Shown here: piece by piece, positions 13,886-62,254 of the stretch
Layout of the letters: each line of letters begins with the position of its first letter
Numbering within the stretch: position 1 is the stretch's first letter
Virus record (IMG/VR): IMGVR_UViG_3300032053_005343
Coordinates: 62,001-126,000 of that record
Direction: 5' to 3' (one strand)
DNA length: 64,000 bases
From: a virus
Notes under the pieces: model-generated
What the model saw: the letters and a program-made list of their open reading frames with translations, nothing else
Database searches by the model: none
Told to the model about the DNA's origin: nothing
Program-made: the position numbers and the translations under genes

Positions 13886-14365
13886 TTAATTATCTTTCCA
13901 CGTTTTATGCAATTTAATACAAGCTTCCAATAATCTATTAATTATTCTAATTTTCCATTCGTTTAATTTTGCATTATTATTTTTTGATCCCTTTTGATTC
14001 TCTTGTAGTGGTGGTGGTTTAAATGTACCATGTTTAATTTTATCGTTTTCATTACTCTTGTGAAAATCCCACCTTAAATTTTCTATTAAATAATTTTTTG
14101 GATTACCATTATTGTGACAAGCCTCCATCCCTTTAGGTCGCTGGCCAACAAAATACTCTAAAACTAAACGGTGAATTCTTATTAGTTTATGTTTACCATT
14201 TTTATATAAATTGACAAATGGATATCTAGCTTTGATATGAATTTTTAATATTTTGTTAGAAATATTCCCATATCTATTAAATAATCTTTTTATTCTATAC
14301 AAATTAGAAAATTGATATATTCTTTCAAAGCCAATAATATCTTTCCAGACTTCAATATTATTCAT
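13886..14365 (-). CDS. NUMOD4/HNH homing endonuclease with shortened C-terminus
   Basis: 159 residues: NUMOD4 (EVWKDIIGFERIYQFSNLY), HNH core (ACHNNGNPKNYLIENLRW, NENDKIKHGT), then KLNEWKIRIINRLLEACIKL and directly HKTWKDN. The family's recognition helix-turn-helix is missing about 15 residues, as if internally deleted, and the HNH His-Leu-Asp is now HNN. Its ATG overlaps the stop of the truncated polymerase gene by 8 bases. It may be the element that once split the polymerase gene but is probably decaying. Confidence 0.78.
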   Translation of the reverse strand: MNNIEVWKDIIGFERIYQFSNLYRIKRLFNRYGNISNKILKIHIKARYPFVNLYKNGKHKLIRIHRLVLEYFVGQRPKGMEACHNNGNPKNYLIENLRWDFHKSNENDKIKHGTFKPPPLQENQKGSKNNNAKLNEWKIRIINRLLEACIKLHKTWKDN

Positions 14366-36248: not shown

Positions 36249-39200
36249 TTATTCTAATGAGCATTTCCCATTAAGACAACTATTGTCAGTAGATTCTACC
36301 TTTGTTGTTATTTCTTTTAAATATTTTTCTGCTTCTTTTGTTGGAAGGGGCATTAGTGGACTTTCGCCCTTGCTTCCATCTCGGAAAATACTTATTCCTT
36401 TGAGATCATACATATACTTTTTAATTAAATTTGATAATTGATTTTTTGTTGTATCTTTGGGCAAATTTATAGTTTTCGAGATGGCTCCGTCTATATGTTT
36501 CTGGCATATTGATTGTATTTTACAGTGTTGCTCTGGGGATATTTCGTGAGCACCCTCAAAATGAGAATAATCTTTTCCCTTTTCTATAAATTCTTTTAAT
36601 AGTGGATGAATAACAATTTCTGTTGATTTATTTGTAAGTTTTGAATGAATATCTTTATGTTTATTAAAATTCCTGCGATAAACCGGAGAGAATAAAGGCT
36701 CTATACCAGAACTACAACCAGCCACTATACTTGTTGTCCCAGTTGGTTGTATAGATAATATCGCGCAATTTCTAATCCCATAAGATAATATTTTTTTTCT
36801 TGTAGATATAGTCAAACATTCTTTACAAAATCCACTTTCTAAGAATTTTTTCCTATCAAGAAGGGGGAATGATCCCTTTTCCACCCCCAAAAAAACACTT
36901 GCTTCATAAGCTTTCTTTTTTATAAAGAGCATAATTTTATCTGTTATTTTCAATGCCTCTTCTGAACTATATTTTATTCCCATTTTAAGGAACATATCAT
37001 GTAAGCCTAAAATTCCAAGCCCAATTCTTCTGTGATTTTGACATGTTTTTTTAATTATTTCGAGGGGATATTCATTTTTGTCTAAAACATTATCTAGAAA
37101 TCTTACTCCCATACGAATTGTATCATCTAATAAGTCCCAATTTATTTCATCGTTACTTGTTACATGGACAGATAAATTTATTGATCCCAGTGTACATGCA
37201 TCATATACCGGCAACCATTGTTCACCACAAGGGTTAGTGGATGACATAGGAGCAACCCACCATATATTGTTATATTTATCTGCATTACCTATAGATAAAA
37301 TTCCAGGATCCCCGCACGACAAAGAATTTTCTATTATCTTGTCGTATAACCATTTTGCTTTAACAGTTTTTATTTCTTTTCCTGCCCATTCCAATATTAT
37401 ATCTTTATCTTTTTCTACTAAGTCTAAAAATTTATCGTCTATTAATACGCTAATATTAGCATTATTTAATTCCTTCTCGTCTAATTTGACACGTAAAAAT
37501 TCTTCAATATCTCCATGATCGTATCTTAAACAAAACATTAGCGCGGAATTATGTACCAATAATCCCTCGGATATAAATTTCGCATCATGTTCAATCTGGA
37601 TATCATATGTTTCTTCTTTTTCATTTTGTCTTGTTATGCTTAAAACTTTAATAGGAAGAAAATCTCTGTCTCCTTCTGTCAAAATAAATTTTTTCCAACT
37701 ACACTCCATTTTTGCTTTTTCCGAATTCTTAAGATCTGTCCAATACGCAGGACTAAAATTCCCTCTGTTATTATATTCTCGTAACATTTTTCTTGGTACT
37801 GTTAATGAAAATTGTTCCTTTTTTCTTTCTTGGATGCCATCTCTGGCATATTTTAAAGAATATGGAGATATATCATTTTTAATTTTTTCTATTCCAAAAT
37901 AAGAAAATGCTGCAACAGAATACATGTCTTTCCATTCTCCTGTGGCTTCCCTATCAAGTCTAGTTTTAGAGACTATACCAAGAGAAGAAAGAACGGCTCT
38001 TATTTGTCTTAAAAAATCTGGATAGACGGATGATGCTATTTTGGGCAAAGTTTTCTTTTTTGTTTTTCCAAGATATCCATCTGCATCTAATAACCCCGCC
38101 AAGTATGCCTTTCTAATTTCTGGCAATCCTTGTAAAATAAAATCAGGCACGTTCATTGTTTGGTGGGGTAATTTAAATTGAGATAAGTATTCTGCAAGTT
38201 GTTTTGAACAAACACGAGGCTTACTACATTTTTCTTTCGTTTGAAAGTAATCATTTATATGTAAATTATCCCCGAATCTTTTTATATTTTTAACAATTCT
38301 ATTGTGTATTTCAGGAATATCATATGGACAAGAAAATGAAACAGTGCCCTTGTTTCCTTCGTTTAAGATTTCTACACATCCATTCCCATGCAAATATCCA
38401 AAAAGCCATGCAATTTCTGTATCCAGGGTCGGTATTGTAATATCCTTGCATGTTGTGGACATTTTTGGTTTAATATAATTATATTCGGGCAATTTTGTTT
38501 TATGCCCTTGTATTTCTTCTGGAATAAATAAAATTCTGTCCCCATAAATTAAATCTTTGGCAAGCTTCCATTCTACTTTACCAGTTAAATTTTTTAGAGT
38601 AGCCCATCTATGATTTAAAGAAGATTTAAATATACCCATTTGTGTATCAATTAAAACTATTTCTTGATTTCCGGTGCGTTCAGATGCAATAACTTTATCG
38701 TATTTGTTTAATCCCGTTTGTACAATATCTCCAATTTTAATATTTTCAATTTTGATTAGTCCGTTATAAGTATGTATTAGCGATCCCTTTGGGAGACATC
38801 TTCTCCCGCCGCCTTCTCTTAATTCATTACATATACCATCTACCATTTTCATCAAACTTACAGCCCCAGTAGCGGTTCCACCACTGCCTTTTATTGGTGT
38901 TCCTCTTGGTCTTACTGAGCTAAAATTGCATCCAACGCCACCACCAAGACTTGTAATTACTGTTATATCATATAGTAATTGTGCCCATTCTTCTCTACTG
39001 TCACCACATTTTACTACGAAACAATTAAGCATAGCAGATTTTTTTCGTCCTGCCCCACGGAATATTCTTCCGCCAGGAACTAATCTATTCTGACTCAATA
39101 TTTCATAGAATTTTTTTTCAAATTCTTTTATTTTTTCTCCATCTTCTGCACTTGCCATAAAGTTAGCTACACGACGACACGCTTCCTGGAATCCCTCGTC

Positions 39201-39278
39201 TTGACTTATCGCATAACGATCTTTAAATATCTGAAGAGCGAATCCTGAAGGTTCGTAAATTGGGAGAGTATTTTCCAC
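36249..39278 (-). CDS. nrdJ: Class II (B12-dependent) ribonucleotide reductase with intein
   Basis: 1009 residues including a 417-residue intein (residues 161-577), leaving about 592 residues of enzyme. Extein motifs: MLNCFVVK (active-site Cys), SSTNPCGEQ, CTLGSINLSV (second redox Cys), SIQPTGTTSIVAGCSSGIEP, and a C-terminal CLNGKC thiol pair. No class I small-subunit gene is seen here, in keeping with the class II call. Reduces nucleotides to deoxy forms using adenosylcobalamin. Starts with GTG, overlapping the stop of the upstream gene by one base. Confidence 0.9.
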   Translation of the reverse strand: MENTLPIYEPSGFALQIFKDRYAISQDEGFQEACRRVANFMASAEDGEKIKEFEKKFYEILSQNRLVPGGRIFRGAGRKKSAMLNCFVVKCGDSREEWAQLLYDITVITSLGGGVGCNFSSVRPRGTPIKGSGGTATGAVSLMKMVDGICNELREGGGRRCLPKGSLIHTYNGLIKIENIKIGDIVQTGLNKYDKVIASERTGNQEIVLIDTQMGIFKSSLNHRWATLKNLTGKVEWKLAKDLIYGDRILFIPEEIQGHKTKLPEYNYIKPKMSTTCKDITIPTLDTEIAWLFGYLHGNGCVEILNEGNKGTVSFSCPYDIPEIHNRIVKNIKRFGDNLHINDYFQTKEKCSKPRVCSKQLAEYLSQFKLPHQTMNVPDFILQGLPEIRKAYLAGLLDADGYLGKTKKKTLPKIASSVYPDFLRQIRAVLSSLGIVSKTRLDREATGEWKDMYSVAAFSYFGIEKIKNDISPYSLKYARDGIQERKKEQFSLTVPRKMLREYNNRGNFSPAYWTDLKNSEKAKMECSWKKFILTEGDRDFLPIKVLSITRQNEKEETYDIQIEHDAKFISEGLLVHNSALMFCLRYDHGDIEEFLRVKLDEKELNNANISVLIDDKFLDLVEKDKDIILEWAGKEIKTVKAKWLYDKIIENSLSCGDPGILSIGNADKYNNIWWVAPMSSTNPCGEQWLPVYDACTLGSINLSVHVTSNDEINWDLLDDTIRMGVRFLDNVLDKNEYPLEIIKKTCQNHRRIGLGILGLHDMFLKMGIKYSSEEALKITDKIMLFIKKKAYEASVFLGVEKGSFPLLDRKKFLESGFCKECLTISTRKKILSYGIRNCAILSIQPTGTTSIVAGCSSGIEPLFSPVYRRNFNKHKDIHSKLTNKSTEIVIHPLLKEFIEKGKDYSHFEGAHEISPEQHCKIQSICQKHIDGAISKTINLPKDTTKNQLSNLIKKYMYDLKGISIFRDGSKGESPLMPLPTKEAEKYLKEITTKVESTDNSCLNGKCSLE
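37548..38798 (-). mobile_element. Intein with LAGLIDADG homing endonuclease in nrdJ
   Basis: 417 residues from Cys161 (block A CLPKGSLIHTYNG) to the terminal Asn577 (LLVHN) followed by Ser578 as nucleophile. Block B SSLNHRWATL includes the splicing His. The homing domain has WLFGYLHGNG and AYLAGLLDADGYLG. It interrupts the conserved GGGRR-SALM segment near the catalytic region of the reductase. All splicing residues look intact, so it should splice and could still be mobile. Confidence 0.9.
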
Positions 39279-43852: not shown

Positions 43853-44377
43853 TTAAATTTTATCACCAAACTTTAATATTAATTTTTCGGTTGCTTTTTT
43901 TTGCAAATTCAATATAGAATAAGTTGAAAATCCCGTTTTTTCTGTAATTTCTAAAAGAGTCATATTACTTAGATATCTCAGTCTCAGAACTTCCGCTTCT
44001 TCTTCTTTTAAAGAATCAAACATTTCTTCAATAATAAGTCCCGATCCGACTGGCTCGTTATATTCAGCATTAATAAACTCTTTTCTTAATTCTGTTTCGT
44101 ATCTCGTTGCTTGTTTTATGTTTGAATCTATAAAATGTCTTATAGACCCACTTACACGATGATAAAGAAAAGTATTAAAAGCACCTAAAGTTATATTAAA
44201 ATGAATCATAGAATATAAAAGTTCTGTTCTTGCAATTGAAAGAAAATCGTTGAGATAATTTTCATCATATCCTTTTCCAAATTTTTTAAACAAATCATTT
44301 GCTATTTTTTTTAATAAGTTATATTTTTGTTTGTAATAAAAATCAAAATATCCACTGGTTATTCTTCTTTTAACCAT
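43853..44377 (-). CDS. Sigma-70-like factor
   Basis: 174 residues. The N-terminal part (YLNDFLSIARTELLYSMIHF, NTFLYHRVSGSIRHFID) looks like a shortened region 2; the C-terminal region 4-like HTH is EEEAEVLRLRYLSNMTLLEI followed by TEKTGFSTYSILNL. No region 1 or 3. Probably redirects host RNA polymerase to phage promoters. Overlap-free but tight between ClpP and the endonuclease fusion. Confidence 0.72.
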   Translation of the reverse strand: MVKRRITSGYFDFYYKQKYNLLKKIANDLFKKFGKGYDENYLNDFLSIARTELLYSMIHFNITLGAFNTFLYHRVSGSIRHFIDSNIKQATRYETELRKEFINAEYNEPVGSGLIIEEMFDSLKEEEAEVLRLRYLSNMTLLEITEKTGFSTYSILNLQKKATEKLILKFGDKI

Positions 44378-44379
44378 TA

Positions 44380-45009
44380 TTATTCCTTTAAAGAATTAAT
44401 ATTTAACTTATCTTCCATTTCCTTTGTCCAAATTCCATCTACAATCCCAATCTTAATAGCTTCTTCCGGCATTAACCAAGTTGTTTTATTTAACAATTCA
44501 TTAAATTTTTTCCTATTAATTTTAAGTCTGGAAACAAGATCTTTCGTTTTATCTTCCGAATATTTCGTCAAATGTTCTATAGCTGTTTTTTGTGAAAGAA
44601 TTTCATTCTCAGGAAGTGCAACATTAATATTATGAAGAAACATCGTACTATTTTTAGTAATGAAACGACACCCCTTGGTTCCGTAAGCTGTTATCGTAGC
44701 CGCCATACTTGCCGAGGTTCCGCGCACAATGGTATATATAGGAAATGGACTAAGTTCCATAGTATCTATAATTGCATAACCACCACCCAATTCTCCACCG
44801 GCACTATTAATATAAATATATACTGGTAATTTATTAAAAGCGTATGCCTGTAATCTCTGGCAAATATAGTCTGCTTTTTGATCTGTAATTTCTCCTGTGA
44901 GAAGGATGCGACGGGTCTTTATTAACATTTCTTCTAGATCGTTATTTAAATCATTTTCTGCTTGGCAAACTTCGCAATCGCATTCGGGCTCTTCTTTTTT
45001 ATTTTTCAT
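44380..45009 (-). CDS. ClpP-family serine protease
   Basis: 209 residues. VYIYINSAGGELGGGYAIID, RGTSASMAATI (Ser101 nucleophile) and STMFLHNI (His126) mark the ClpP fold; the third triad residue is not obvious by eye. An N-terminal CDCEVC pair may bind zinc. In phages such peptidases often act as prohead proteases; with the sigma-like factor and KVGPPGKEW protein downstream this suits a late or assembly region. ATGA overlap with the small ORF upstream. Confidence 0.82.
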   Translation of the reverse strand: MKNKKEEPECDCEVCQAENDLNNDLEEMLIKTRRILLTGEITDQKADYICQRLQAYAFNKLPVYIYINSAGGELGGGYAIIDTMELSPFPIYTIVRGTSASMAATITAYGTKGCRFITKNSTMFLHNINVALPENEILSQKTAIEHLTKYSEDKTKDLVSRLKINRKKFNELLNKTTWLMPEEAIKIGIVDGIWTKEMEDKLNINSLKE

Positions 45010-45499: not shown

Positions 45500-46162
45500 T
45501 TAATTTTTTTTTCTTTTCTTGATTGATGTTGTTAAAGCTTTTTCTAGGGGCCATTTAAGAGTATTTATTCTTATTATAATCGCATTGTAGTTTAAATTTT
45601 TTATTTTACAATAGTCTTTTAAACACAATAATTTTCCATTCAATGGAATAACAATATTATTTCTTTTATTTCTATTCTGTTCTTTTCGTGTTGCCCATCT
45701 GCAATTTGATTTATAATACCCTAAATTGTTATTTATTCTTTCAAGTGTTAATCCAGGAGAACATTCTCCCATGTCTTTTAAAAAGTTTTGAAATCCATTT
45801 TTCTTATTTGACCATCTTCTACAAACAGTGATTGGCTGTGTTCTTCCTCCATAGTTTTTATATGATTTATCATTTGGATTTGTGCATCTTTGTATCATGT
45901 GATGATATGCTTCATATGTTTTTGATGCTTTGTTATTTTTGGTATGATTATGTTTTGTTTGAGCCAATTTTATTTTTTCTATCATCAAACATCCACAACT
46001 TTTTGTATTCCCTGTCACAAGGCTATAACGAGGAATTATTTTAATAATACCACAATCACACAAGCACTCGTATAGGATTCGACCTAATTTGTTTTTACCA
46101 TATTCTTTAATGACAGTTAATCTTCCGAATTTTTTACCAATTAAATCTTTAATTTTATTCAT
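45500..46162 (-). CDS. Zinc-ribbon/DRIDN-type HNH-like homing endonuclease
   Basis: 220 residues: IGKKFGRLTVIKEYG, CLCDCGI, KSCGCL, AYHHMIQRCTN, GFQNFLKDMG, LERINNNLGYYKSNCRWAT and NRNKRNN, HTH ending PLEKALTTSIKKRKK. LERINNN in place of LDRIDNN keeps the overall pattern but changes two acidic positions. Overlaps the start of thyX's stop region by 8 bases. Confidence 0.8.
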   Translation of the reverse strand: MNKIKDLIGKKFGRLTVIKEYGKNKLGRILYECLCDCGIIKIIPRYSLVTGNTKSCGCLMIEKIKLAQTKHNHTKNNKASKTYEAYHHMIQRCTNPNDKSYKNYGGRTQPITVCRRWSNKKNGFQNFLKDMGECSPGLTLERINNNLGYYKSNCRWATRKEQNRNKRNNIVIPLNGKLLCLKDYCKIKNLNYNAIIIRINTLKWPLEKALTTSIKKRKKN

Positions 46163-46982
46163 TTAAAATTCTACGCACCCCCTCGCTTCCATCCTGGAGT
46201 TTAAAAAGTTCCATTTTGTACACAATAAGAGGAAATTCTTGTTGCATTATTTTGAACATTTCAACACTCAAAGATCTTATTTCAGGTTCTACACCTTCTC
46301 CTCCTCTTAGACTCATAAAATATCTAACGGATCTTCCGTTTAAAGTTGTCATGATTTTCGTTTCCGTCGCATTGGGCAACACAGACCTAGCTGCTTGTCT
46401 AGCTGCTTTTCTTTGTTCTGTTTTATTTGGCATATCTTTATACAATTCTGATAATTGGGTTGTTAATATTTCATAAAAATCTCTTGATTTTAAACAAAAT
46501 GTTTTCCATTCTTCTACTACAGATGGATTTATTTTTTCTAATTCTTGAATAGCTTTTGGTATAATAAAACAAACATCCGAAGAGTCTACGTATCTTTGGC
46601 TAAGTTGACTGTATGCGACTCCAATTCTAGTTCTTACGAGTTCGTGAGTTAATGATCTTGACACATTCCAAATTTGGAAATTAAAAGTCGCATGTTCTAA
46701 ACAACTTTCATGTCCTACATCTATTAAATGTTTAAGGTGTTCATCGTGTGTTCTACCTTTTAATTCTTCTCCTTTTTTAGGCCATGATTGGTAGCAATTT
46801 CTTCCGCCGAACTCTATTAGCCAGTTTCCATCGTCGTCGCCGAGATCAATATTCGAGTCAAGTTTTCTTTGAAATTCTGGCCAACACATATTTGAATCTT
46901 CTAAGAATGCCGTTAGACCATCTATATTTATTATGCTTTTTCCAATTAATTTTACTTTTGGTTTAATTATAAAATCATTCAT
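46155..46982 (-). CDS. thyX: Flavin-dependent thymidylate synthase
   Basis: 275 residues. Family core: GHESCLEHATFNFQIWNVSR, then ELVRTRIGVAYSQLSQRYVD, the FAD/dUMP motif (commonly R-H-R-x7-S). The middle His is Thr here and the spacing to Ser is one longer than in classical forms. C-terminal LPNATETKIMTTLNGRSVRY is also typical. Converts dUMP to dTMP with FAD, replacing ThyA; matches the dCMP deaminase. Confidence 0.88.
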   Translation of the reverse strand: MNDFIIKPKVKLIGKSIINIDGLTAFLEDSNMCWPEFQRKLDSNIDLGDDDGNWLIEFGGRNCYQSWPKKGEELKGRTHDEHLKHLIDVGHESCLEHATFNFQIWNVSRSLTHELVRTRIGVAYSQLSQRYVDSSDVCFIIPKAIQELEKINPSVVEEWKTFCLKSRDFYEILTTQLSELYKDMPNKTEQRKAARQAARSVLPNATETKIMTTLNGRSVRYFMSLRGGEGVEPEIRSLSVEMFKIMQQEFPLIVYKMELFKLQDGSEGVRRILNE

Positions 46983-48169: not shown

Positions 48170-48562
48170 TTAGTGTTGTGAGTCACTTATTTCAACCATT
48201 ATCTTTTCAAATTCTAAATTAAATATCGCCTTGCCGCACAAGATATGCCTATCGCTGACATTAGATATCGTATCATTGAGATTGATCGTAATTTTTCCAT
48301 CTGAATCTTTTTGAAAAGTTTGACAAGTAAGATAACCATCTTTAATTTCTTTTACATATATATACAACCACCAATAATCTTTTTCTTCTTGTGGACACGA
48401 ATAACAATTCTTATATTTATAACATTTTCCAACAAATTCTTTTAAAGCTTTCTCTTTTTTAAGTTCTTCTCGTTTGTGTATTTCGTCCCAACAAATTTTA
48501 TAAATCTTTTCTAATTGAATGGGTGTCATATTTTCTGGCTTTTTAAGCAACAATTTGTTCAT
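48170..48562 (-). CDS. Hypothetical protein
   Basis: 130 residues, N-terminal helix pair (IQLEKIYKICWDEIHKREEL), then a beta region with CYKYKNCYSC, IYVKEIKDGYLTCQTF. Cysteine spacing might bind zinc. Overlaps the Dam gene by 20 bases. Confidence 0.5.
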   Translation of the reverse strand: MNKLLLKKPENMTPIQLEKIYKICWDEIHKREELKKEKALKEFVGKCYKYKNCYSCPQEEKDYWWLYIYVKEIKDGYLTCQTFQKDSDGKITINLNDTISNVSDRHILCGKAIFNLEFEKIMVEISDSQH

Positions 48563-49271
48563 CTAATTTTCCTTTAAACTTAAATAATTTTTCTTTTCTA
48601 TCAGCTTTTCCTCCGGTGATAGTATTCATACAAGTTTTTCTTTCTATTTGCCAAACACATTCGAAATCTTCTGGAGCTTGATATTCCGATATATATATAT
48701 CATGCTTGTCCGAAAATTCTCTTATAATATTCCAAAATCGAACATGGTCAAATTTAGATTTATATCCCGTTGTTTCCATATATGGCGGATCACAATAAAC
48801 AAAACACCCCAAAGGAAGAGTTCTTAACAAATCTTCATAATCCCTAGAATAAAATTTAACATCTTTTATAGTTTGTAAAAGTCTTATAGTACTATTGCGA
48901 GCGCCTTTAATAAAATCATATCCGCTCTTTGGATCACGAGCATATCCTCCCCAACCCTTTCCACCGAATGAACAAAAATACATAGCAAAACCTATTTCTC
49001 CGTTACACACTGTTTCTTTATATAATTGTTTTAACTCCTTATATCTTTCTTCTGATAATATTTCTGGAGGTAGCCATCCATCTTGTAACTGGCGATAGAA
49101 GGTTATTAGGTAAGGACAAAGATCAGATCCTATTCTTGGGCCATCTATTAAAGAAATAATAGCGCCACCTCCAACAAAAGGTTCAACATATATTTGCCCA
49201 GGCTTGCGAACCGATTTTAAAAAGGCTGTTAATTGTTTTGCTATTCTTACTTTTCCACCTAAATATCTCAT
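48543..49271 (-). CDS. DNA adenine methylase (Dam, D12 class)
   Basis: 242 residues from the ATG at 49271 (MRYLGGKVRIAKQL), with AGAGGA upstream; a longer frame starts within the neighbouring gene. VEPFVGGGAIISL is the SAM-binding FxGxG motif (about residues 32-36), and CDPPYMETTGY the catalytic DPPY (about 161). Methylates N6 of adenine in a short site, perhaps protecting phage DNA or regulating. It sits two small genes from the BrxL-like ATPase. Confidence 0.85.
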   Translation of the reverse strand: MRYLGGKVRIAKQLTAFLKSVRKPGQIYVEPFVGGGAIISLIDGPRIGSDLCPYLITFYRQLQDGWLPPEILSEERYKELKQLYKETVCNGEIGFAMYFCSFGGKGWGGYARDPKSGYDFIKGARNSTIRLLQTIKDVKFYSRDYEDLLRTLPLGCFVYCDPPYMETTGYKSKFDHVRFWNIIREFSDKHDIYISEYQAPEDFECVWQIERKTCMNTITGGKADRKEKLFKFKGKLDEQIVA

Positions 49272-49275
49272 CTTA

Positions 49276-49527
49276 TTAATATCCTCTTGGTAGAAACCAA
49301 ACTTCATTATATATCATTCTTTGTCCATCTTGGAGTTTTTCAATACCCTTAAAAAGAATACCATCGGCAGAAATAATAATGTCTAAAATATCCATTTCTA
49401 GTGTAAGACTATCTCCTGTAAAACAATATAATTTTTTATCATTACAACAAATATATCCTATATTTTTATTAGGATTTTTTATTTGCAAACCATCTATAGT
49501 TCTTTGAATGTAAAAATCTCCACGCAT
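49276..49527 (-). CDS. Hypothetical protein
   Basis: 83 residues, beta-rich (YICCNDKKLYCFTGDSLTLE, LDIIISADGILFKGIEKL). No family recognised. Between it and 49582 lie 54 bases with an unassigned G-rich frame (GGPKGPVSNYVCGRG, no start codon), maybe the remnant of another gene. Confidence 0.45.
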   Translation of the reverse strand: MRGDFYIQRTIDGLQIKNPNKNIGYICCNDKKLYCFTGDSLTLEMDILDIIISADGILFKGIEKLQDGQRMIYNEVWFLPRGY

Positions 49528-49581: not shown

Positions 49582-49920
49582 TCATAAAATTATCTTTCTT
49601 TTATTGGATTTTACTTTAATAGGTTTGTTTTTAATTAATGGTTTAAAATATCCATATTGCTGTTGAACTATGTCGTTAAATTCTTCTATCCAATCAACAC
49701 CATCAACATTTTCTGTCCATCTTACTTTTACTCCACAAATAGTAATATCACCAAAAAAATCTCTTACTGGCGAACACACATCTATTGTAAAAGAATTATG
49801 AAACATTTCAAGAAATTCTCTTCTTTTTTCTTTTGATATAAAAATAACGTTTGGGTATTTACCATGCTTTGTTCTAAACTCATACATTGTTTTTCTTATG
49901 TCGTCAACATTATTAAACAT
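49582..49920 (-). CDS. Hypothetical protein
   Basis: 112 residues. FRTKHGKYPNVIFISKEKRR followed by FGDITICGVKVRWTENVDGV suggest an alpha/beta fold; a basic tail ends it (KVKSNKRKIIL). Its start overlaps the BrxL-like gene stop by 8 bases. Confidence 0.45.
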   Translation of the reverse strand: MFNNVDDIRKTMYEFRTKHGKYPNVIFISKEKRREFLEMFHNSFTIDVCSPVRDFFGDITICGVKVRWTENVDGVDWIEEFNDIVQQQYGYFKPLIKNKPIKVKSNKRKIIL

Positions 49921-51322
49921 TTATTTTATATCCAATTTGTGAATTTTTAAACTCTCCGGGACTAATAATTTTTAATTGGTCCAAAATTCTTTGTCGTAGA
50001 GAAATAGATAAATTCATAATCAACTCAAGTTCCTCGTTTAAGATAGTTTCAATTGTTCTATGAGGAAAAATAATTTTCAATAAACCTGACGCCAATTTTG
50101 TTAGAGCAATTTGATTTCTAAATCCTGTTTCTAAAAATTGAATCTTGGAATTAAGAACATAAGAATAATTCTTATCTCTCAATCTGTGAAAAATTTCAGA
50201 AAGATAGTCTGATGCAAACGCGTAATCTTGGGACAAAGAAGAAACAGAAATTTGTGGTAGTTTCCATCCAGGCAAGTATCCATGAAAACGATCCAAGAAA
50301 GCTCTGTCGTTTCTTATTTTTATAGGTAGCGGAACAAATAAATGTTGATACGTATTTTTAGGTTCATAGATTTTAAGATCACAATCAATATTACCTAAAA
50401 GTATGACTCCACAAGATGATGATAACTCCGTTTTGTCTCTCGAAAATTTTCCAGAATTTAAATAATCCTTGAGGGTATTGATTAATTCTTCGTTATTGAA
50501 CGATACGGAAGAAATTTCATCAAAAGCAAGAAAATCTTTATAACAGATTACGCCCGGAGATCTCCTTAGTTTATTATAAAAAAGACTCGCAATAGTAGGG
50601 TTGCTGCCCGATAAAACAAGACCGTATTGACTTAGGTTTCTAAAAAAATGAGTCTTGCTAGTGGCAACTGGCCCCAACTCAATTAAATTAACATTAGATT
50701 CTACAAATAAGATGAGACGACAAATATACAGTAGTTTTTGTTCTTGTGTTAGTCTTTCGGGATTAAAACCTATACTATTAATTAATAAATCAATCCATTC
50801 TTCTGTAGAAAACAATTTTCTTTTTTCAATATATTCATCCAAATTAATTTGAGTTATACTTAAAGGAACAAAGTCTATTATGACAAAAGGATAATTTTTC
50901 TTTTTTATTAGAGTGTTCGGATCATATGCAACAACTATATTTCCAAAACAACCCTCGGACAATAATTTGTCACCAAATTTTTCAAGCACGGTTCTATGTA
51001 TTCTAATATTATTATCTTCTAAAGAACTAATAGTTGCGAAATAGTCGTCTTTATTTTGGTCAAGTCGAACCTGGAGATGTCCCAAAAGATTATATCTTCC
51101 GATTTCTTTTATTCTAGATTTGATTAATTCTTTTTTAGAAGATTCTGCATAATTTTCTTCTAAGAGTTTTTGTATTTTCAATATACCTGTCTGTGGATTT
51201 TCGGAATCAACAAGTTGAGAAACAAGATAATCCGAAACAAAACTCGGAATTTGTCCAAACTTAACAGATATTTTTTTATCAATAATATATTCTTTTGGGA
51301 AGATTTCTAATATTTTATTCAT
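49913..51322 (-). CDS. BrxL-like AAA+ ATPase lacking the Lon protease domain
   Basis: 469 residues. From the N-terminus it follows the BREX protein BrxL: a helical N-domain (SFVSDYLVSQLVD, LLEENYAE), FVPLSITQINLDEY, FSTEEWIDLLINSIG, LILFVESNVNLIELGPVATSKTHF, VLSGSNPTIASLFYNKLRR, DFLAFDEISSVSF (Walker B), LKDYLNSGKFSRD, VILLGNIDCDL, FLDRFHGYLPGW. BrxL proteins are about 670-700 residues with a C-terminal Lon-type protease; this one stops before it. The Walker A is GPVATSKT, with two glycines changed. No other BREX gene is present. Confidence 0.8.
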   Translation of the reverse strand: MNKILEIFPKEYIIDKKISVKFGQIPSFVSDYLVSQLVDSENPQTGILKIQKLLEENYAESSKKELIKSRIKEIGRYNLLGHLQVRLDQNKDDYFATISSLEDNNIRIHRTVLEKFGDKLLSEGCFGNIVVAYDPNTLIKKKNYPFVIIDFVPLSITQINLDEYIEKRKLFSTEEWIDLLINSIGFNPERLTQEQKLLYICRLILFVESNVNLIELGPVATSKTHFFRNLSQYGLVLSGSNPTIASLFYNKLRRSPGVICYKDFLAFDEISSVSFNNEELINTLKDYLNSGKFSRDKTELSSSCGVILLGNIDCDLKIYEPKNTYQHLFVPLPIKIRNDRAFLDRFHGYLPGWKLPQISVSSLSQDYAFASDYLSEIFHRLRDKNYSYVLNSKIQFLETGFRNQIALTKLASGLLKIIFPHRTIETILNEELELIMNLSISLRQRILDQLKIISPGEFKNSQIGYKINV

Positions 51323-51809
51323 TTACATCTCCCCAATTTTTACCAGTTCTAATTTTAGAAATTGTTGATGGTGTTACTTTATATTTTTTTGCCAATTCCG
51401 TTCCTTTTAATTCCGATTTTTTTATTTCTATAACTTGAAATATTTTTAATTTATAATTACCAAAAGAAACCTTATGTTTAGTTCTATCTTGCGAATTTTC
51501 TTTTGGTGTTCCCCAACATAAGTTATCTAATCTATTATTTAATTTATATCCATCAATATGTCTACATTGCATTCCTAAAGGGCAAATACCAACAAATGTT
51601 TCTAAAACCAATCTGTGAACGGTATGTGATTTAATTTTACAATTTTTACTTAAATGAACAAATAAATATCCATATCTATCCTTACAAAGTTTTAAAATTT
51701 TAAACGGCTTAGCTTTATAATATTTATATAATCTTTTTATTTTTCCAAAATTTGAGGCTTCATATAATCCCCCGTATTTCGGAATATCTTTCCAAATCTC
51801 TTCTTCCAT
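51315..51809 (-). CDS. NUMOD4/HNH homing endonuclease
   Basis: 164 residues: NUMOD4 (EIWKDIPKYGGLYEASNFG), HRLVLETFVGICPLGM, HNH core (CRHIDGYKLNNRLDNLCW, ENSQDRTKH), C-terminal HTH (GTELAKKYKVTPSTISKI). HIDGY replaces HLDGN, with the final Asn lost, so its fitness is uncertain. Overlaps the start of the BrxL-like gene by 8 bases. Confidence 0.84.
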   Translation of the reverse strand: MEEEIWKDIPKYGGLYEASNFGKIKRLYKYYKAKPFKILKLCKDRYGYLFVHLSKNCKIKSHTVHRLVLETFVGICPLGMQCRHIDGYKLNNRLDNLCWGTPKENSQDRTKHKVSFGNYKLKIFQVIEIKKSELKGTELAKKYKVTPSTISKIRTGKNWGDVNE

Positions 51810-52302: not shown

Positions 52303-52824
52303 TTATTTTTTTAATCTAGGTTTAAATTTTCTTCTATTATTTGATTGCTCTTTCATCGTAGACCACTTACAATTTTCTTTGTAATAACCTTCGCTATTGT
52401 TTATTCTATCAATTGAATATTCTTTTCCAGGTCTTTCTCCCATATCTTCTAAGAAATTCTGAAATGATCCACCCATTTTAATATTCCATCTATCACAAAC
52501 GGTAATTCCGCGACCTCCGTAGTCTTGATGTCTTTTATAATTTGGATTATTGCATCTATTGAGCATATTAGTCCATGATCTATGTGTTATTGATTCTTTC
52601 CCAACCCTGCTGTGTCCGTGCTTTGTTGCATTTTTAATTTCTTTAAACAAACACCCACAACTTTGTGTTCGTCCAACGAGAAGACTATTTCCAATAATTG
52701 TTTTAATGTTTCCACAATTGCATTTACAAGACCACAGATATTGTCCATGTCTATTTTTACCCGATAGACCTATAACTAAAAGTCTTCCAAATTTTTGTCC
52801 AATTAAATCAATGAATTTTCCCAT
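52303..52824 (-). CDS. Zinc-ribbon HNH-like endonuclease without C-terminal HTH
   Basis: 173 residues: IGQKFGRLLVIGLSG, CKCNCGN, QSCGCL, WTNMLNRCNN, GSFQNFLEDMG, SIDRINNSEGYYKENCKWST and QSNNRRKF, then it stops at PRLKK without the GWSxExAL helix-turn-helix tail. A TATAAT hexamer ends 5 bases before the ATG on the minus strand without a fitting -35; read as chance in AT-rich DNA. Confidence 0.78.
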   Translation of the reverse strand: MGKFIDLIGQKFGRLLVIGLSGKNRHGQYLWSCKCNCGNIKTIIGNSLLVGRTQSCGCLFKEIKNATKHGHSRVGKESITHRSWTNMLNRCNNPNYKRHQDYGGRGITVCDRWNIKMGGSFQNFLEDMGERPGKEYSIDRINNSEGYYKENCKWSTMKEQSNNRRKFKPRLKK

Positions 52825-53114: not shown

Positions 53115-53744
53115 TTATTTTGTTCCATGTTTGAAATAGTAATGGCCGGTTTTAAATCCATTCATACTCTTTTTATTTTTTCCATTAATTTGGAATAATA
53201 AATAAAGATTAGGGTCTAATATTTTTAGCCACTTTCTTAAAGTAGGATCAGATATTTTAATAGTTTTTGATATTTCATACAAACTTTTATTTTCTTTTAC
53301 TAATACTCTAAGATTAGTCAATATATTTTTTATTATATTTTGTTTTGTCATATTTTGTAAGAATTTTTCACTCTTGCGAGTTAAACTCATTATTTGTCTT
53401 GTCTTTAATGAATGCTTCCTACCCGCCATCAACGCAAATGGATTTGTTGCAATATTAAAACCTATTTTGCCGTTACAACAATTAGTATTATCTAACCAGC
53501 ACTTTTCTTTTAGTAATAGTTGATTTGTATCGTTAATAGTTTCAATTATCTCAAATTTAAAATTTTTCTCCCCGTATTTATTCCAGCAATTTTGTAAATA
53601 TTTGTTGGGATGTTTATTGTGTTTCAAGAAACTAACATGATTCATTAATCTTTTATTTATATCAATAGTACTTCCTATATAGAATTTATTATTATTCAAA
53701 CACGTTATTTTATAAATACAGGAAGTTTTATTCTTCTTCGTCAT
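53115..53744 (-). CDS. GIY-YIG homing endonuclease
   Basis: 209 residues. CIYKITCLNNNKFYIGSTID, RLMNHVSFLKHNKHPNKYLQ, YGEKNFKFEIIET form the GIY-YIG domain; a shortened NUMOD3-like part (GRKHSLKTRQIMSL) and a C-terminal HTH (LYEISKTIKISDPTLRKWL) follow. Overlaps the phosphatase-ligase gene by 17 bases. Confidence 0.85.
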   Translation of the reverse strand: MTKKNKTSCIYKITCLNNNKFYIGSTIDINKRLMNHVSFLKHNKHPNKYLQNCWNKYGEKNFKFEIIETINDTNQLLLKEKCWLDNTNCCNGKIGFNIATNPFALMAGRKHSLKTRQIMSLTRKSEKFLQNMTKQNIIKNILTNLRVLVKENKSLYEISKTIKISDPTLRKWLKILDPNLYLLFQINGKNKKSMNGFKTGHYYFKHGTK

Positions 53745-55668
53745 TATTTATTTTTTCTTTTTTGAACATAGAAAAATTATATGTTTTAATATTTTGAAGA
53801 ATAATAGTTTTAAAAAAATTAGATTTGATAGGTTTATGATCCAGTAACGAAAAACACAAAGCCAGCTTTTCTCCAGAATATTTCTGTTTCATTAAAAGGG
53901 CAAAATCTTTTCTTGATAATTTTCTATTTTCTTCTACTAAGTTCGCTATGTGATTATACACATCGTTCGCTATTTGAGAAGCGGTACAGATAGAAGAAGC
54001 CGCCGGTACAATCACAACCCAAGTTTCATAATCAAAAGTTGATTGAAATTTGTTTTCAAAATCCCTGAAAGATGGTCTACCCCAACTCAGATATAGGTCT
54101 GTAATTGCTTCAGAATCAAGTTTAGATTTTAAAGCATGTAATATAAAATAATGGTCTGACTTAATTTTTACCAATTCTTGTTCATTATTCAATCTTATTA
54201 CGTATCCTTCAATTTCTTTTTCTGTTTTTAATTTTTCTATAAGATTAATTATTTCTGCATTATTTTTTAAACAAAAATATTCTGTGCAAGGCATCATATG
54301 ATCGTCATAAGTTGTTAAATCTTCTGTTATTTCTTCTAGTTGTTTCATTGTTAATAAAGAAAATTCATTTTCATACCATTTTGTATTTCTCTTAAAAGAT
54401 ACAGCGCCAACCAAATATATCTCTGGTTGATCATATTTTATTACAATCTGATTTTTTGGAGAAACCCATTCAAATAATAGAGATGTATCGGGATACATAG
54501 AGGCATGATTTAATTTTGGATATTTTTTAATAAACCCATCTATCTCATCTTTATTGTCAAGTCCAACCGTTAAAGATCCCCTTGTTCTCCATCCTACTAT
54601 TCCATCACGAACATATCTTATCAATAAGCTTCCGTCTATTTTTAGCGTAGCCATCAATCCTGTTTTATTGTCCAACAGATCTTGTTCAGAAACATTAAAA
54701 TCTCCGCACCCTTCTCCTATATTCATAAATTTTGGAAAACCAACGGAAATAACGTGGTCATTTCTATCTATATGCATCGACCTTAACCATCTTAGGTTGA
54801 AATCTTGCCATGCGTCATTTCCTACGCCAAACTCTGGACCTATTAGGGTTTCAAATTTTTCATTTGTCGATGTTTTAAATTGTTCTGGTATTTTCATGTC
54901 TTTTTTATATCCTTCTATTTCGACAATCTCATACTTATTATTTTGTATAATCATCGCTCTCAAAGTTCCTCCGTGACAACAACCACCATCCAAACAAAAC
55001 ACATTTGGGTTTGGTTGTACAATTGGTGAAACAATATGGCCCGACAGAACTGTGTATGTGCCGTCGAGAAAATCATACCAAATTCCTTTAGACTCATCAA
55101 AATAATTTTTTGGATCTATACCTCTAATATAGATACAAGTTTCTGGGGTTTGTTTGTCTATCGGATATTTGGCATCTACCCCTGCGTGGACGACATAACA
55201 TGGTTTATTATTTAAATCTGGTAGACGTATTATATGAGGAAGTGCGCCAAGATAAAGAGCTACTAATTGTTGAAAATATTCATGCGGAGATTTAATTTGA
55301 ATTTCATTTATTGTTGATTGCAGTGTTTTTCCTATCTTTACTTTATTACCAATTAAAGCTCTTTTTAATTTATCGTCGTGATTACCAGTTACAGAATAGA
55401 TATTGTGTTCTTGATGAGGATTGTCAGGCATAAAAAATCTTAGTACGTCTACAGAATTTGGGCCGCGATCACAAAGGTCTCCGCACGATATAATAATATC
55501 TGTTTCGTTATTATAATTACATTTTTGCAAAAGTTCTATCAATTGGTCGTAACAACCATGTATATCACCTATACATATAAATCTTCTATAATGTGTTCTT
55601 CCGGTTGACGAATATCTCCACCCTGTCGTTATTGATGATAAATCTAATATTTTAGCTAATTTTCTCAT
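53728..55668 (-). CDS. Metallophosphatase-RNA ligase fusion (Pnkp-like)
   Basis: 646 residues. Residues about 28-245 are a calcineurin-like phosphatase: ICIGDIHGCYDQLIELL (34-38), SCGDLCDRGPNS (63-69), VTGNHDD (95-98), HAGVDAKYP and LSGHIVSP. From about 265 there is a nucleotidyltransferase: LKIDGSLLIRY with the lysine of K-x-D-G (Lys343), LLFEWVSPKN, IEGYVIRLN and LVKIKSDHY, the ordered motifs of ATP-dependent RNA ligases. Together with the kinase gene at 55837 this reproduces the kinase-phosphatase-ligase content of bacterial Pnkp, split in two. Probable tRNA or RNA end repair. Confidence 0.85.
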   Translation of the reverse strand: MRKLAKILDLSSITTGWRYSSTGRTHYRRFICIGDIHGCYDQLIELLQKCNYNNETDIIISCGDLCDRGPNSVDVLRFFMPDNPHQEHNIYSVTGNHDDKLKRALIGNKVKIGKTLQSTINEIQIKSPHEYFQQLVALYLGALPHIIRLPDLNNKPCYVVHAGVDAKYPIDKQTPETCIYIRGIDPKNYFDESKGIWYDFLDGTYTVLSGHIVSPIVQPNPNVFCLDGGCCHGGTLRAMIIQNNKYEIVEIEGYKKDMKIPEQFKTSTNEKFETLIGPEFGVGNDAWQDFNLRWLRSMHIDRNDHVISVGFPKFMNIGEGCGDFNVSEQDLLDNKTGLMATLKIDGSLLIRYVRDGIVGWRTRGSLTVGLDNKDEIDGFIKKYPKLNHASMYPDTSLLFEWVSPKNQIVIKYDQPEIYLVGAVSFKRNTKWYENEFSLLTMKQLEEITEDLTTYDDHMMPCTEYFCLKNNAEIINLIEKLKTEKEIEGYVIRLNNEQELVKIKSDHYFILHALKSKLDSEAITDLYLSWGRPSFRDFENKFQSTFDYETWVVIVPAASSICTASQIANDVYNHIANLVEENRKLSRKDFALLMKQKYSGEKLALCFSLLDHKPIKSNFFKTIILQNIKTYNFSMFKKEKINNDEEE

Positions 55669-56325: not shown

Positions 56326-56543
56326 AAAGGATTACAAACAGTATATCTTATCACATCTTCGCATAGTATATCTAAATTGTCCCAATATAAATCTATATCA
56401 TCCAATTCATCAGGGTCATCCTCAAAAACTTTGATATTTATATTTGTAATTTTTGTTAATCTTTTTGTTTCTTCGTTTATGTCTTTGGCCAATTTTTGTA
56501 ATTTTCTATTAAATGTATTTAATTTTTTAATCTGTCTTTTCAT
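56322..56543 (-). CDS. Small coiled-coil protein with acidic tail
   Basis: 73 residues: basic coiled coil (KKLNTFNRKLQKLAKDINEE) then an acidic stretch (EDDPDELDDIDLYWDNLDIL). Start and stop overlap neighbours (ATGA). Paralog-like to the 55668 protein in its N-terminus. Confidence 0.48.
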   Translation of the reverse strand: MKRQIKKLNTFNRKLQKLAKDINEETKRLTKITNINIKVFEDDPDELDDIDLYWDNLDILCEDVIRYTVCNPL

Positions 56544-57199
56544 TTTATTTTTTTTCTATATTTTTTAACTGGTGTTGTTAATGCCTTTTCTATTGACCAC
56601 CCAAGCCTATATAATCTGATCCATAATGTATTTGGATTAATATTATATTCTTTCGCCCAATCTATTAAAAATTGTGTTTTATTATTAAATGTTATTGGTC
56701 TATTCCAACGTTGATTTCTACGTTGCTCTTTTCTAGAAGACAGTTTCCAATTGTTAAAATCATAATTTCCATTATTATCTATTCTGTCTAACGTTAATCC
56801 TTTTGGTATTTCGCCAATATCTTCAAGAAAATTTTCAAACCCAGTTTTCTTGTTTAACCATCTTTCACAAACAGTTATTCCTCGTTCTCCATAATTTTTA
56901 TAATCTTTATTATTTTTATTAAAACATCTAGATTTCATATCTTGCCATGTTTTATATATTTTTGATTTTTTATTTCTTGCAAGACCATGCTTTAAATTTA
57001 ATCCATTTTTTATTTTTTCTTTATATAGACATCCACAACTCTTTGTATTCCCGCTCCTAAGACTATTTCCAGGAACAATTATTTCCTTGCCGCATTCACA
57101 CAAACAAGACCATGTTATGTGTCCATCTTTTGCATAACCAATTCTTTTCATAACTGTTAATCTACTAAATTTTAATCCTGTTAAATCAACAAATTTCAT
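56540..57199 (-). CDS. Zinc-ribbon/DRIDN-type HNH-like homing endonuclease
   Basis: 219 residues: GLKFSRLTVMKRIG, CLCECGK, KSCGCL, WQDMKSRCFN, GFENFLEDIG, LDRIDNNGNYDFNNWKLSS and QRRNQRWN, HTH with GWSIEKALTTPVKKYRKK. Contains the full set of blocks with Trp for the usual Cys at the core. Lies between RNA repair and DNA ligase. Confidence 0.82.
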   Translation of the reverse strand: MKFVDLTGLKFSRLTVMKRIGYAKDGHITWSCLCECGKEIIVPGNSLRSGNTKSCGCLYKEKIKNGLNLKHGLARNKKSKIYKTWQDMKSRCFNKNNKDYKNYGERGITVCERWLNKKTGFENFLEDIGEIPKGLTLDRIDNNGNYDFNNWKLSSRKEQRRNQRWNRPITFNNKTQFLIDWAKEYNINPNTLWIRLYRLGWSIEKALTTPVKKYRKKIK

Positions 57200-59561: not shown

Positions 59562-61628
59562 CTATATCAGAATAAATTCACACCCCCTCTGAAAATCTTG
59601 AATGTTATCAAAACCGGCATAACTTATCGCGCTTCTTAATGCCCCCGCATACCTATTTAAAAGTGATTCTACTGGTTCTCCTATGTCAAGATGAATTAAT
59701 TTGCCCTCTGCCGAAGTTCCTGGTTTTAAACCACCCTTCCATTTATTCTGGACATATTCACTATTGCCACACCACGTATATTTATTGTTTCTTCTTACAC
59801 ATAATATTCCATTAGGAACCTCTGCGCAATACACTTTGCCACTATAATCTATAAAACTATAGTGTTTTGGGAGGATGGTGGGGTTATGCCAATATTTACC
59901 TACATAAACAGAAAATGAATCATATTTTCTAACGAAACTTTTCCCATTAATTTCTCCTAAAGATCCCTTTGGATGATTCAAGTGAATTGTTGGAGTTAAT
60001 CCACATTTTATACATATCTCTGATATATCGTCTATAAATTTAGTGGAAGAACTAGTTATAGAATTTCTGTTTTTACAACCGTCACCGAGAAATATTGAAT
60101 TTATTAAAATCTCTAATAATTTAGTCGGTAGATTTTTAATTTTTTTCGGAATAAATTTTTCATGAGCCTTCCCAAATTTCATCAAATAACTGCAAAGGGG
60201 CATGTTTTGTATTGTAAGTTCATAATTTTTATTCCTTTTTCTTACAAAGGAACCAATATTATATTTTCTTAATAAGGTTACATAATGATTTATCAATTTT
60301 TTATTATTATTTGAAATACTTATGGAATACACAAAATGATTAGGATTATAACTGATATGTTTTTTTGATTTTGATATTCTTTTATTTGCCCACCCTTCTG
60401 CTAACCAGAATCCAAAAAAATCAATCCATTCTTCTGTCAGAAAATTTGTTCCTATTTTCTTATATTTATTTTTATATCCAGAGACAACATCGGGTATCTT
60501 AAAAAATTTGGAATATTCTCCCTTCCATCCGCATATTTTTTGATACTTAAAATTTTCCTTACAACACCGTTCCGCCTTAACGAATTTAAATTTTTCTTTA
60601 TATCCATCCTTAATTCTTGCTCGTTTAGCAACATACATTCTGTGATTTGGTGTTACTAATAAATCAATAGCTTTATGATTTATATTTATCATTTCCCCGT
60701 TATAATTATAATTAAAAATATTTGTTGGTTTTTGAAATTCCATTAATTTTGTTTCTGTATTTAAAGTTGCTAAATCGTCAGATAATTTTATTTCTGAAAA
60801 ATTTTTCCATCCATTGATGGTTAATATTTCTGTGTCGTCGCTATAACATGACATGCCCGCCAGAATTTTCTTCTTTATCCCATCAATTTCTATCGTTTCT
60901 GAAGCACTCTCTGGGCATCTGGCGAATATACTACCAGCCATAGCACAACTAGCTCCTGCCCCGATAGCTTTGGTGAAATCGGCGGGGCAACGAATGTTCC
61001 CGTCACTAATGATTGGCATACCATATTTTTGTGAGATTTCTTTTAAATCATAGATAGCAGAAAATTGATTTTTTGTACAACCAACTACTGTCGCCGTCGA
61101 ACAGGAATTACCACCACCTATGCCGATTTTTATTGCATCTACATAATCATTGAACATCCCTATCATATCAGGATTAATAGTATTTCCGGCGACAACTTTT
61201 ATTGTTGGATAGAATTTTTTTATATGTTGGCACATTTGTAATGCATATTTATTAAAACCATGAGCTACATCGACGAAAATAATGTTAGATCCAGCTTTTA
61301 TTAATTTTTCAACCAATATATAATCTGAATCTTTTATTCCAATGGAAACCGCAACAGAGGGAATTTCCTTTGTTATTTTTTTTGTTTCCGATATATAATC
61401 ATCTGTATTTGGAAAAGCTCTGTGTAAAACCCCCATAGCCCCAAGCCTATAAAGCCCTATCGAGAATTCCGCATTCGTGACTGTTGACATATTCGCTGCC
61501 AAAAGGGGAAGTGGACGGATTACTCCGCGAATTATCTCGCTTTTTATTTTTGTGTCAAGCCGACTTTTGCAAATATTCTCTTTTTGATAAATTGCTATGT
61601 CAGAAAATTTATATGATTTTTTAAACAT
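59562..61628 (-). CDS. guaC: GMP reductase with intein
   Basis: 688 residues including a 362-residue intein (residues 261-622), leaving 326 for the enzyme. Extein motifs: PLLAANMSTVTNAEFSIGLY, AGSNIIFVDVAHG, IKIGIGGGNSCSTATVVGCT (loop with the active-site Cys), GMPIISDGNIRCPADFTKAI and the AGMS-SEYV junction in the substrate-binding loop. Belongs to the IMPDH/GMP reductase fold; no CBS domain and the length favour GMP reductase. A purine salvage enzyme that would return GMP toward IMP. A fragment of a second copy lies upstream (62254). Confidence 0.85.
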   Translation of the reverse strand: MFKKSYKFSDIAIYQKENICKSRLDTKIKSEIIRGVIRPLPLLAANMSTVTNAEFSIGLYRLGAMGVLHRAFPNTDDYISETKKITKEIPSVAVSIGIKDSDYILVEKLIKAGSNIIFVDVAHGFNKYALQMCQHIKKFYPTIKVVAGNTINPDMIGMFNDYVDAIKIGIGGGNSCSTATVVGCTKNQFSAIYDLKEISQKYGMPIISDGNIRCPADFTKAIGAGASCAMAGSIFARCPESASETIEIDGIKKKILAGMSCYSDDTEILTINGWKNFSEIKLSDDLATLNTETKLMEFQKPTNIFNYNYNGEMININHKAIDLLVTPNHRMYVAKRARIKDGYKEKFKFVKAERCCKENFKYQKICGWKGEYSKFFKIPDVVSGYKNKYKKIGTNFLTEEWIDFFGFWLAEGWANKRISKSKKHISYNPNHFVYSISISNNNKKLINHYVTLLRKYNIGSFVRKRNKNYELTIQNMPLCSYLMKFGKAHEKFIPKKIKNLPTKLLEILINSIFLGDGCKNRNSITSSSTKFIDDISEICIKCGLTPTIHLNHPKGSLGEINGKSFVRKYDSFSVYVGKYWHNPTILPKHYSFIDYSGKVYCAEVPNGILCVRRNNKYTWCGNSEYVQNKWKGGLKPGTSAEGKLIHLDIGEPVESLLNRYAGALRSAISYAGFDNIQDFQRGCEFILI
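59763..60848 (-). mobile_element. Intein with LAGLIDADG-like homing domain in guaC
   Basis: 362 residues from Cys261 (block A CYSDDTEILTINGWKNFSEI) to Asn622, followed by Ser623. Block B LLVTPNHRMYV has the splicing His; blocks F and G are VYCAEVPNGILCVRRNNKYT and WCGN. The homing domain has FFGFWLAEGWANK and SIFLGDGCKNR, weakly LAGLIDADG. It interrupts the AGMSSEYV loop of the active site. The C-terminal GN-S lacks the usual penultimate His, which is known from some inteins. Confidence 0.85.
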
Positions 61629-62254
61629 TATTTTATTTTTCTCCTGATGGGTTCGTTTAATGCTCTATCAATATTCCAACCCCTCCTTATTCTTGTCCGA
61701 AGTGTATCGTAAGGAAGATTATATTCTTCGGCCCAGGCTGCAATACATTGTGTTTTACCTTTATATGTTAACATATGGCTATCTCTTCTGTTGTAATTAT
61801 TTTCTTTATTGGTGCTCCATCGACAATTCTTTTTATGATATCCTTTATTGTTATCAATTCTATCTATCTGATGCTTCTTGCTTGGCGGTAGTCCCATGTC
61901 ATTAAGAAAATTAATAAATCCGTTATTTTTAGGCAACCACCTTTTGCAAACCGTAATGCCTCTATTTCCGTAATCTTTATATCTTGGATTTTTGGGGTTG
62001 GTACACCTTTGAATCATAGATTTCCATATTTTATCAATATGAGAATTGCTAAGCCCATGTTTGGTCATTATATCTTTGTGCAGGCATCCGCAACTTTTTG
62101 AATCTCCTGTTCTTAAACTATATCCGTCTATATTTTTTATGATTCCGCAACTACATTCACATTTCCATCTAGATTTCTTTTTGTTGGTGTTTATTTGTTT
62201 AAGAATTGTCCATCTTCCAAATTTTAATCCCGTTAAATCAATAAATTTGCCCAT
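61628..62254 (-). CDS. Zinc-ribbon/DRIDN-type HNH-like homing endonuclease inside guaC locus
   Basis: 208 residues: GLKFGRWTILKQI, CECSCGI, KSCGCL, WKSMIQRCTN, GFINFLNDMG, IDRIDNNKGYHKKNCRWST and NYNRRDS, HTH with GWNIDRALNEPIRRK. Its start (TAATG) overlaps the stop of the guaC fragment and its last codons contain AGGAGA, which serves as the ribosome-binding site of the guaC ATG. Confidence 0.84.
   Translation of the reverse strand: MGKFIDLTGLKFGRWTILKQINTNKKKSRWKCECSCGIIKNIDGYSLRTGDSKSCGCLHKDIMTKHGLSNSHIDKIWKSMIQRCTNPKNPRYKDYGNRGITVCKRWLPKNNGFINFLNDMGLPPSKKHQIDRIDNNKGYHKKNCRWSTNKENNYNRRDSHMLTYKGKTQCIAAWAEEYNLPYDTLRTRIRRGWNIDRALNEPIRRKIK

Follow-up and report, generated by a model that had tools for sequence, protein, structure and literature searches.

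BrxL is a restriction factor of BREX, a defence found in only ~10% of bacteria and archaea (PMC13326643). Both E. coli and Acinetobacter need it for BREX restriction (PMC12839542, PMC10164562), and mutation of residue E280 of the Acinetobacter protein (AcBrxL) abolishes restriction (PMC10164562). Type-1 BrxL carries an N-domain, an AAA+ part, and a C-terminal Lon-like or HKD domain; the C-terminal domain joins two BrxL rings into a double ring (PMC10164562). Helicase activity of BrxL could not be demonstrated (PMC10164562). The BrxL of Type-4 BREX has no C-terminal extension (PMC12839542, a 2026 survey).

For a BrxL encoded by a tailed phage, the nearest precedent is a pair of ATPases of archaeal rod-shaped viruses, AFV2 ORF425 and SIRV1 ORF440, which are annotated only as Lon-like. 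They are virus-encoded, protease-less AAA+ proteins similar in size to the protein described here, but they share 16% identity with it, come from archaeal hosts, and stand in another gene context.

A BrxL homologue in a tailed-phage genome

The DNA analysed here (the window) is a stretch of 64,000 nucleotides from a 137,011-base virus record. The record encodes a tail tape-measure protein, DnaB helicase, SSB, DNA polymerase, UvsX, and ribonucleotide reductase (RNR). The tape-measure, DnaB, and SSB genes indicate that the record belongs to a tailed phage. The features of the window considered below are as follows.

21553-22977, minus strand: DnaB-like replicative helicase, ~28 kb from brxL
36249-39278, minus strand: RNR large subunit, interrupted, probably by an intein; syntenic block
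43853-44377, minus strand: sigma-70 region-4 protein; syntenic block
44380-45009, minus strand: ClpP-like protease; syntenic block, used as independent bait
46155-46982, minus strand: ThyX-like gene, named from its sequence and not by a profile; syntenic block
48543-49307, minus strand: D12-class (Dam-like) adenine methyltransferase, ~606 bases from brxL
49582-49920, minus strand: small ORF of 112 aa, overlapping the stop of brxL with its start (8 nt)
49913-51322, minus strand: BrxL homologue of 469 aa, with BrxL_N (residues 11-133) and MCM-like AAA+ ATPase (residues 146-462) and no C-terminal Lon/HKD domain
51315-51809, minus strand: NUMOD4/HNH homing endonuclease upstream of brxL, whose stop overlaps the brxL start codon

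The 112-aa ORF is found only beside the brxL of the window and of three relatives (L001, L009, and L020), and family searches with it gave no significant match.

The window carries a very heavy load of HNH and GIY-YIG homing endonucleases at many sites (for example 51315-51809, 52303-52824, 53115-53744, 56540-57199, and 61628-62254). In three ORFs, the RNR (36249-39278), a PhoH/ThyX-like ORF (59562-61628), and the DNA polymerase (14358-16721), the profile matches fall in separated parts and the inserts are endonuclease-like or other-like, which suggests inteins. A single ORF at 53728-55668 combines a metallophosphoesterase-like N-terminal half with an RNA-ligase-like C-terminal half.

The protein encoded at 49913-51322 is firmly identified as a BrxL-family member. 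Pfam BrxL_N (PF20442) matches residues 11-133 with an E value of 3e-23, and Pfam BrxL_ATPase (PF13337) matches residues 146-462 with an E value of 2e-104 over profile positions 1-311 of 313; the earlier note had claimed that the N-domain and AAA+ part align along their full length, and both are indeed matched along nearly entire profiles. The NCBIfam Lon-less model TIGR02688 is passed with 422 bits (cut-off 329), and against the long Lon-containing model TIGR02653 (675 positions) the protein covers 25-468 only and stays below the cut-off. The best PADLOC BrxL model gives an E value of 1e-121, and PDB 8emc (Acinetobacter BrxL) aligns with residues 21-465 with an E value of 3e-73. The ORF stops after the AAA+ part, and the C-terminal domain of Type-1 BrxL is absent.

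The earlier note had also suggested structure prediction. An AlphaFold2 model built from 50 aligned homologues (pLDDT 92.3) is closest to BrxL: the top Foldseek matches are all BrxL chains (best 8emh, TMq 0.86), followed by MCM helicases as the second-best structural match (E ~1e-12). AFV2 ORF425 and a SIRV9 protein reach a TMq of ~0.6. MCM proteins share just 11-15% identity with phage BrxL over the aligned part; the likeness lies in the fold and the P-loop. Profiles, PDB alignment, and fold thus agree on a BrxL-like ATPase without Lon domain in a phage genome.

The ATPase elements map to the following positions.

50651-50674, minus strand: Walker A, GPVATSKT, residues 217-224, read from the sequence
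50561-50581, minus strand: pore loop, FYNKLRR, residues 248-254, a basic stretch conserved within the phage clade
50516-50521, minus strand: Walker B, D268-E269, from alignment of phage members with AcBrxL

Across 14 aligned phage members, residues K223 and T224 (Walker A), D268 and E269 (Walker B), N311 (sensor-1 Asn), and R345 (the Arg of DRFH/DRIH) are invariant. Residue E269 aligns with E280 of AcBrxL, and the Walker B, sensor 1, and DRFH residues are common to Type-1 and phage BrxL at ~30% overall identity. In the same alignment, the pore loop has the consensus FY(N/D)KLRR with a nearly invariant K-x-R-R, more basic in the phage proteins (KLRR) than in the Acinetobacter Type-1 protein (MSSRR).

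The P-loop GPVATSKT, correctly given in the earlier note, differs from that of Type-1 BrxL in having Ser before the Walker A Lys, in place of the second Gly. It is found in the window, L001, and L020 only; L009 has GGTETAKT, and GPPETGKT and similar loops occur elsewhere, so that Ser or Ala before the Lys is confined to this subclade. In the archaeal MCM P-loop (GDPGTAKS in two genomes), the Lys is likewise preceded by a small residue that is not Gly. GPVATSKT is therefore a local change resembling the MCM P-loop rather than a mark of a dead enzyme.

The dN/dS of brxL is ~0.13 in two comparisons, window/L001 (dN 0.048, dS 0.36) and window/L020 (dN 0.199, dS 1.58), indicating purifying selection on phage brxL. 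Given this low dN/dS and the retention of all the catalytic residues (Walker A Lys and Thr, Walker B DE, sensor-1 Asn, and DRFH Arg), the proposal of a passive decoy of host BrxL, made in the earlier note, is therefore disfavoured.

Conservation of brxL across an uncultured phage lineage

A profile scan of IMG/VR identifies 64 BrxL loci. Many of them are ordinary whole Type-1 or Type-4 BREX loci. A second set encodes BrxL proteins that are 36-93% identical to the window protein and have no C-terminal domain. About ten records share a syntenic block of brxL, thyX, (a tyrosine recombinase), a clpP-like gene, a sigma region-4 gene, small genes, and RNR; where present, a peptide-deformylase-like gene and other small genes precede brxL (deformylase, tyrosine recombinase, and ThyX are named from sequence). 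Since these loci had been chosen through brxL, the scan was repeated with the ClpP-like protein as bait. It yields 31 lineage loci, and brxL is present in all 25 that reach far enough upstream; the remaining six end before the brxL position. Some of the 25 contigs were already known from the brxL scan and many are new. Another 17 loci, whose ClpP proteins are more distantly related (28-37% identity), have no brxL.

The gene is single copy in all nine records checked whole. Mean amino-acid identity across the lineage is 0.62 for BrxL, 0.68 for RNR, 0.69 for ThyX, 0.51 for ClpP, and 0.40 for sigma, and brxL identity mostly tracks that of the backbone genes (Spearman 0.80, 231 pairs). Where a phage-clade record is long enough, it nearly always encodes DnaB too, at a distance of some 15-28 kb from brxL. 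A T4-type Gp23 capsid profile gave no match, and no control matched either. In a collection of 50,697 records of isolated phages, no close BrxL relative is found (best 34%). Thus, brxL belongs to the core genome of an uncultured lineage of large tailed phages, where it lies in one syntenic block. PMC full-text searches found no report of BrxL as a tailed-phage core gene; this retention is the larger finding, Lon-less BrxL itself being known already.

The earlier note had stated that all other BREX genes are missing, and this holds for the sequences covered. No PglZ profile match was obtained in the 137-kb record or in the whole records of relatives that were searched. Type-1/4 PglZ, PglX, and BrxC queries found nothing by tblastn in the window, and tblastn with Type-1/4 queries found no BREX homologue in the covered flanks of the phage-set loci; the test for a BREX system thus comprises PglZ by profile in whole records, and PglX and BrxC by tblastn in the window and loci.

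Given the whole Type-1 or Type-4 BREX loci on many IMG/VR contigs, the phage-set brxL could be an accessory or prophage-borne BREX remnant, or part of a host fragment mis-binned as virus. This has next to no probability: the window's record has a tape-measure gene, six relatives encode a terminase, DnaB is present, and the synteny extends over dozens of contigs with a single clade under purifying selection. Synteny and virion genes lead us to reject a host-contig artefact or BREX remnant for the phage lineage.

The large terminase gene, present in 6 of 13 records, also bears on a possible function of the ring as a virion or packaging ATPase that packages or injects DNA. Archaeal rod-shaped viruses encode BrxL/MCM-like ATPases of comparable size (AFV2 ORF425, SIRV1 ORF440), which might suggest such a function. 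We regard it as very unlikely, because six relatives have a large terminase of their own and brxL sits with the ThyX, RNR, and sigma genes, apart from the virion genes, which form a block on the opposite strand.

The distribution of brxL further argues against the idea that the phage protein enters host BrxL rings and disables them. Most or all phage members retain E79 and L134, positions at the ring interface of AcBrxL, and mixed rings could be faulty because the C-terminal double-ring domain is missing. However, the ATPase residues are intact and under selection, identity to Type-1 or Type-4 BrxL is only ~30-35%, and brxL is present in all testable lineage members, as opposed to BREX in ~10% of bacteria and archaea. 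Such subunit poisoning is therefore improbable.

Possible roles of the phage protein

By analogy with BrxL and MCM structures, phage BrxL is likely to be a ring motor that encircles DNA, given its intact ATPase, its basic pore loop, and its MCM-like fold. We propose that it is a ring-forming, MCM-type AAA+ ATPase that would encircle and move on DNA, and that one lineage of large tailed phages would have taken it up long ago and kept it as a core gene. The ring is expected to be single, in contrast to the double ring of BrxL, because the domain that joins two rings is missing. Ring formation, DNA movement, and a replication-side role are inferred.

We consider the chances balanced that phage BrxL is an active Lon-less ring motor that has a role, throughout the lineage, in the DNA metabolism of the phage itself, for example by loading helicase, restarting forks, or handling the genome alongside the phage DnaB. 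Such a role is favoured by the universal presence and slow evolution of brxL and by its neighbours, which are nucleotide-metabolism, sigma, and protease genes. In 13 records, no DnaC/IstB-type loader scores above the cut-off, and the sole two weak matches fall on brxL; there would therefore be room for a loader-like or second-motor role. A search for a gp59 loader gave no match, with no control matching either. Against such a metabolic role, synteny is no proof of function, DnaB in nearly all adequate records means that a second motor is not obviously needed, and the lack of demonstrable BrxL helicase activity (PMC10164562) counts against it as well. The 'second motor beside DnaB' of the earlier note is compatible with everything found and is offered as a proposal only.

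The divergence of the brxL-dam stretch between the window and a mosaic relative, G022 (L152; L204-L207), also counts against a function in phage DNA metabolism, as it would equally fit a gene facing rivals. Patches of these two genomes range from 70% to 99.8% nucleotide identity. The brxL-dam stretch, at 70-74%, is among the most diverged (BrxL 57% amino-acid identity), and many other patches are at 92-99.8%. At the protein level, window and L152 are 0.57 identical in BrxL versus 1.00 in ThyX, ClpP, sigma, and RNR; L167 and L171 are 0.67 identical in BrxL versus 0.84-0.92 in the neighbour genes. The opposite pattern is seen between the window and the 7-kb contig L001, where BrxL is 93% identical and several flanking genes are only 52-66% identical, with dS of 1-2. 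The opposite patterns of window/G022 and window/L001 indicate that brxL probably moves by homologous replacement within the phage lineage, a recombination perhaps helped by the adjoining homing endonucleases. DnaB, UvsX, polymerase, and other patches of the window/G022 pair also fall to 70-87%, and an arms race is therefore not taken as proven. The idea that exchanged brxL alleles mark an arms race was rejected as unspecific, other stretches of this mosaic being at 70-80%.

The earlier note had paired brxL with a Dam methylase. The D12 gene is indeed present ~606 bases away, but the pairing does not extend to the rest of the lineage. D12 profile matches are obtained in the window, L001, L009, and L020, and a nucleotide match adds L152, giving five close relatives; in the remaining lineage records searched, of up to 180 kb, no D12 methylase is found. 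Because D12 genes are limited to the closest relatives, Dam is an accessory neighbour of brxL and no lineage trait, and a Dam partnership as a rule is rejected.

These alleles and Dam neighbours are the phage-side evidence for a different function, in which phage BrxL blocks the DNA replication of competing phages or the host (superinfection exclusion or host take-over) and the phage's own DNA is spared by modification, by Dam in the window's subclade. The requirement for BrxL in BREX restriction, the divergent alleles in closely related genomes (window/L152 and L167/L171), and the Dam neighbours in five relatives fit such a use. Yet no PglZ or other BREX partner is found, Dam is absent from most of the lineage, brxL evolves slowly and mostly follows the backbone genes, and mosaic divergence strikes DnaB, UvsX, and polymerase too. 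We consider use against competitors unlikely, though worth keeping in view. Both this use and host-ring poisoning have less support than a function in the DNA metabolism of the phage itself.

Chromosomal relatives and a possible shared motor

In a tree of 56 rows, all 18 phage BrxL proteins fall in one branch (support 100/99) and Type-4 BrxL forms a separate branch (100/100); the separation of the two rests on these 100/99 and 100/100 branches. Type-4 BrxL has the same two-domain, Lon-less architecture as phage BrxL and a similar length, but its genes sit with BrxP-, BrxC-, and PglZ-like genes. For example, a 474-aa BrxL follows PglZ-, BrxC-, and BrxP-like genes (names read from sequences) in the Type-4 locus L005.

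The sister of the phage branch is a pair of Lon-less BrxL proteins, L074 and L075 (support 100/99), from Verrucomicrobia/PVC-group MAGs, with 45-47% identity to the phage proteins. Here, the genomic context differs from that of phage brxL, since a PglZ gene adjoins brxL: in L074, brxL comes immediately after the gene of a divergent PglZ-domain protein (29.4 bits against a cut-off of 25), and an ABC-type ATPase gene and a methylase-like gene adjoin PglZ and the Lon-less BrxL (L074:2-8417). By its gene content, L074 appears to be a chromosomal BREX-like locus other than Type-4. Phage BrxL thus seems to share ancestry with the Lon-less BrxL of a chromosomal PglZ-containing locus, and transfer could have run either way.

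The earlier note had implied that the missing Lon domain is special. Loss of Lon as a phage peculiarity is rejected, as Lon-less BrxL occurs in Type-4 BREX (PMC12839542), beside PglZ in L074, in L075, and in archaea.

These relationships suggest that the same motor serves phage and BREX defence. A broader idea, which we hold as doubtful, is that BrxL-type rings are a general DNA-replication motor common to phages and defence systems: a whole lineage of large tailed phages would replicate by means of a DnaB and an MCM/BrxL ring, and BREX would have redirected this motor at phage replication, or the phage would have acquired it from BREX. Being apart from all BREX partners, phage BrxL offers a minimal version for the study of this restriction factor; if it serves replication, its action would reveal how BrxL affects phage DNA in BREX, and a single MCM-like motor would connect the replication apparatus of phages with an immune system.

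Further BrxL relatives outside the phage clade were observed. Lon-less BrxL proteins of 449-479 aa are encoded in Pyrodictiaceae and Thermofilum genomes (L117, L139, and L151), with no BREX homologue in flanks of up to 8 kb. Planctomycete BrxL proteins of ~700 aa (L093, L095, L096, L099, L101, and L104) carry a C-terminal extension and have no Type-1/4 BREX homologue nearby. A Bathyarchaeal relative (L145) has 938 aa, including a 467-aa C-terminal extension. Another clade with a C-terminal domain and the Walker A PRETGK (L077-L091, L019, and L067) comes from diverse bacteria and Methanothrix and is often adjoined by a divergent PglZ (~970 aa) and a ~1450-aa ATPase. In L067, Lon_C matches the C-terminal domain with an E value of 1e-52.
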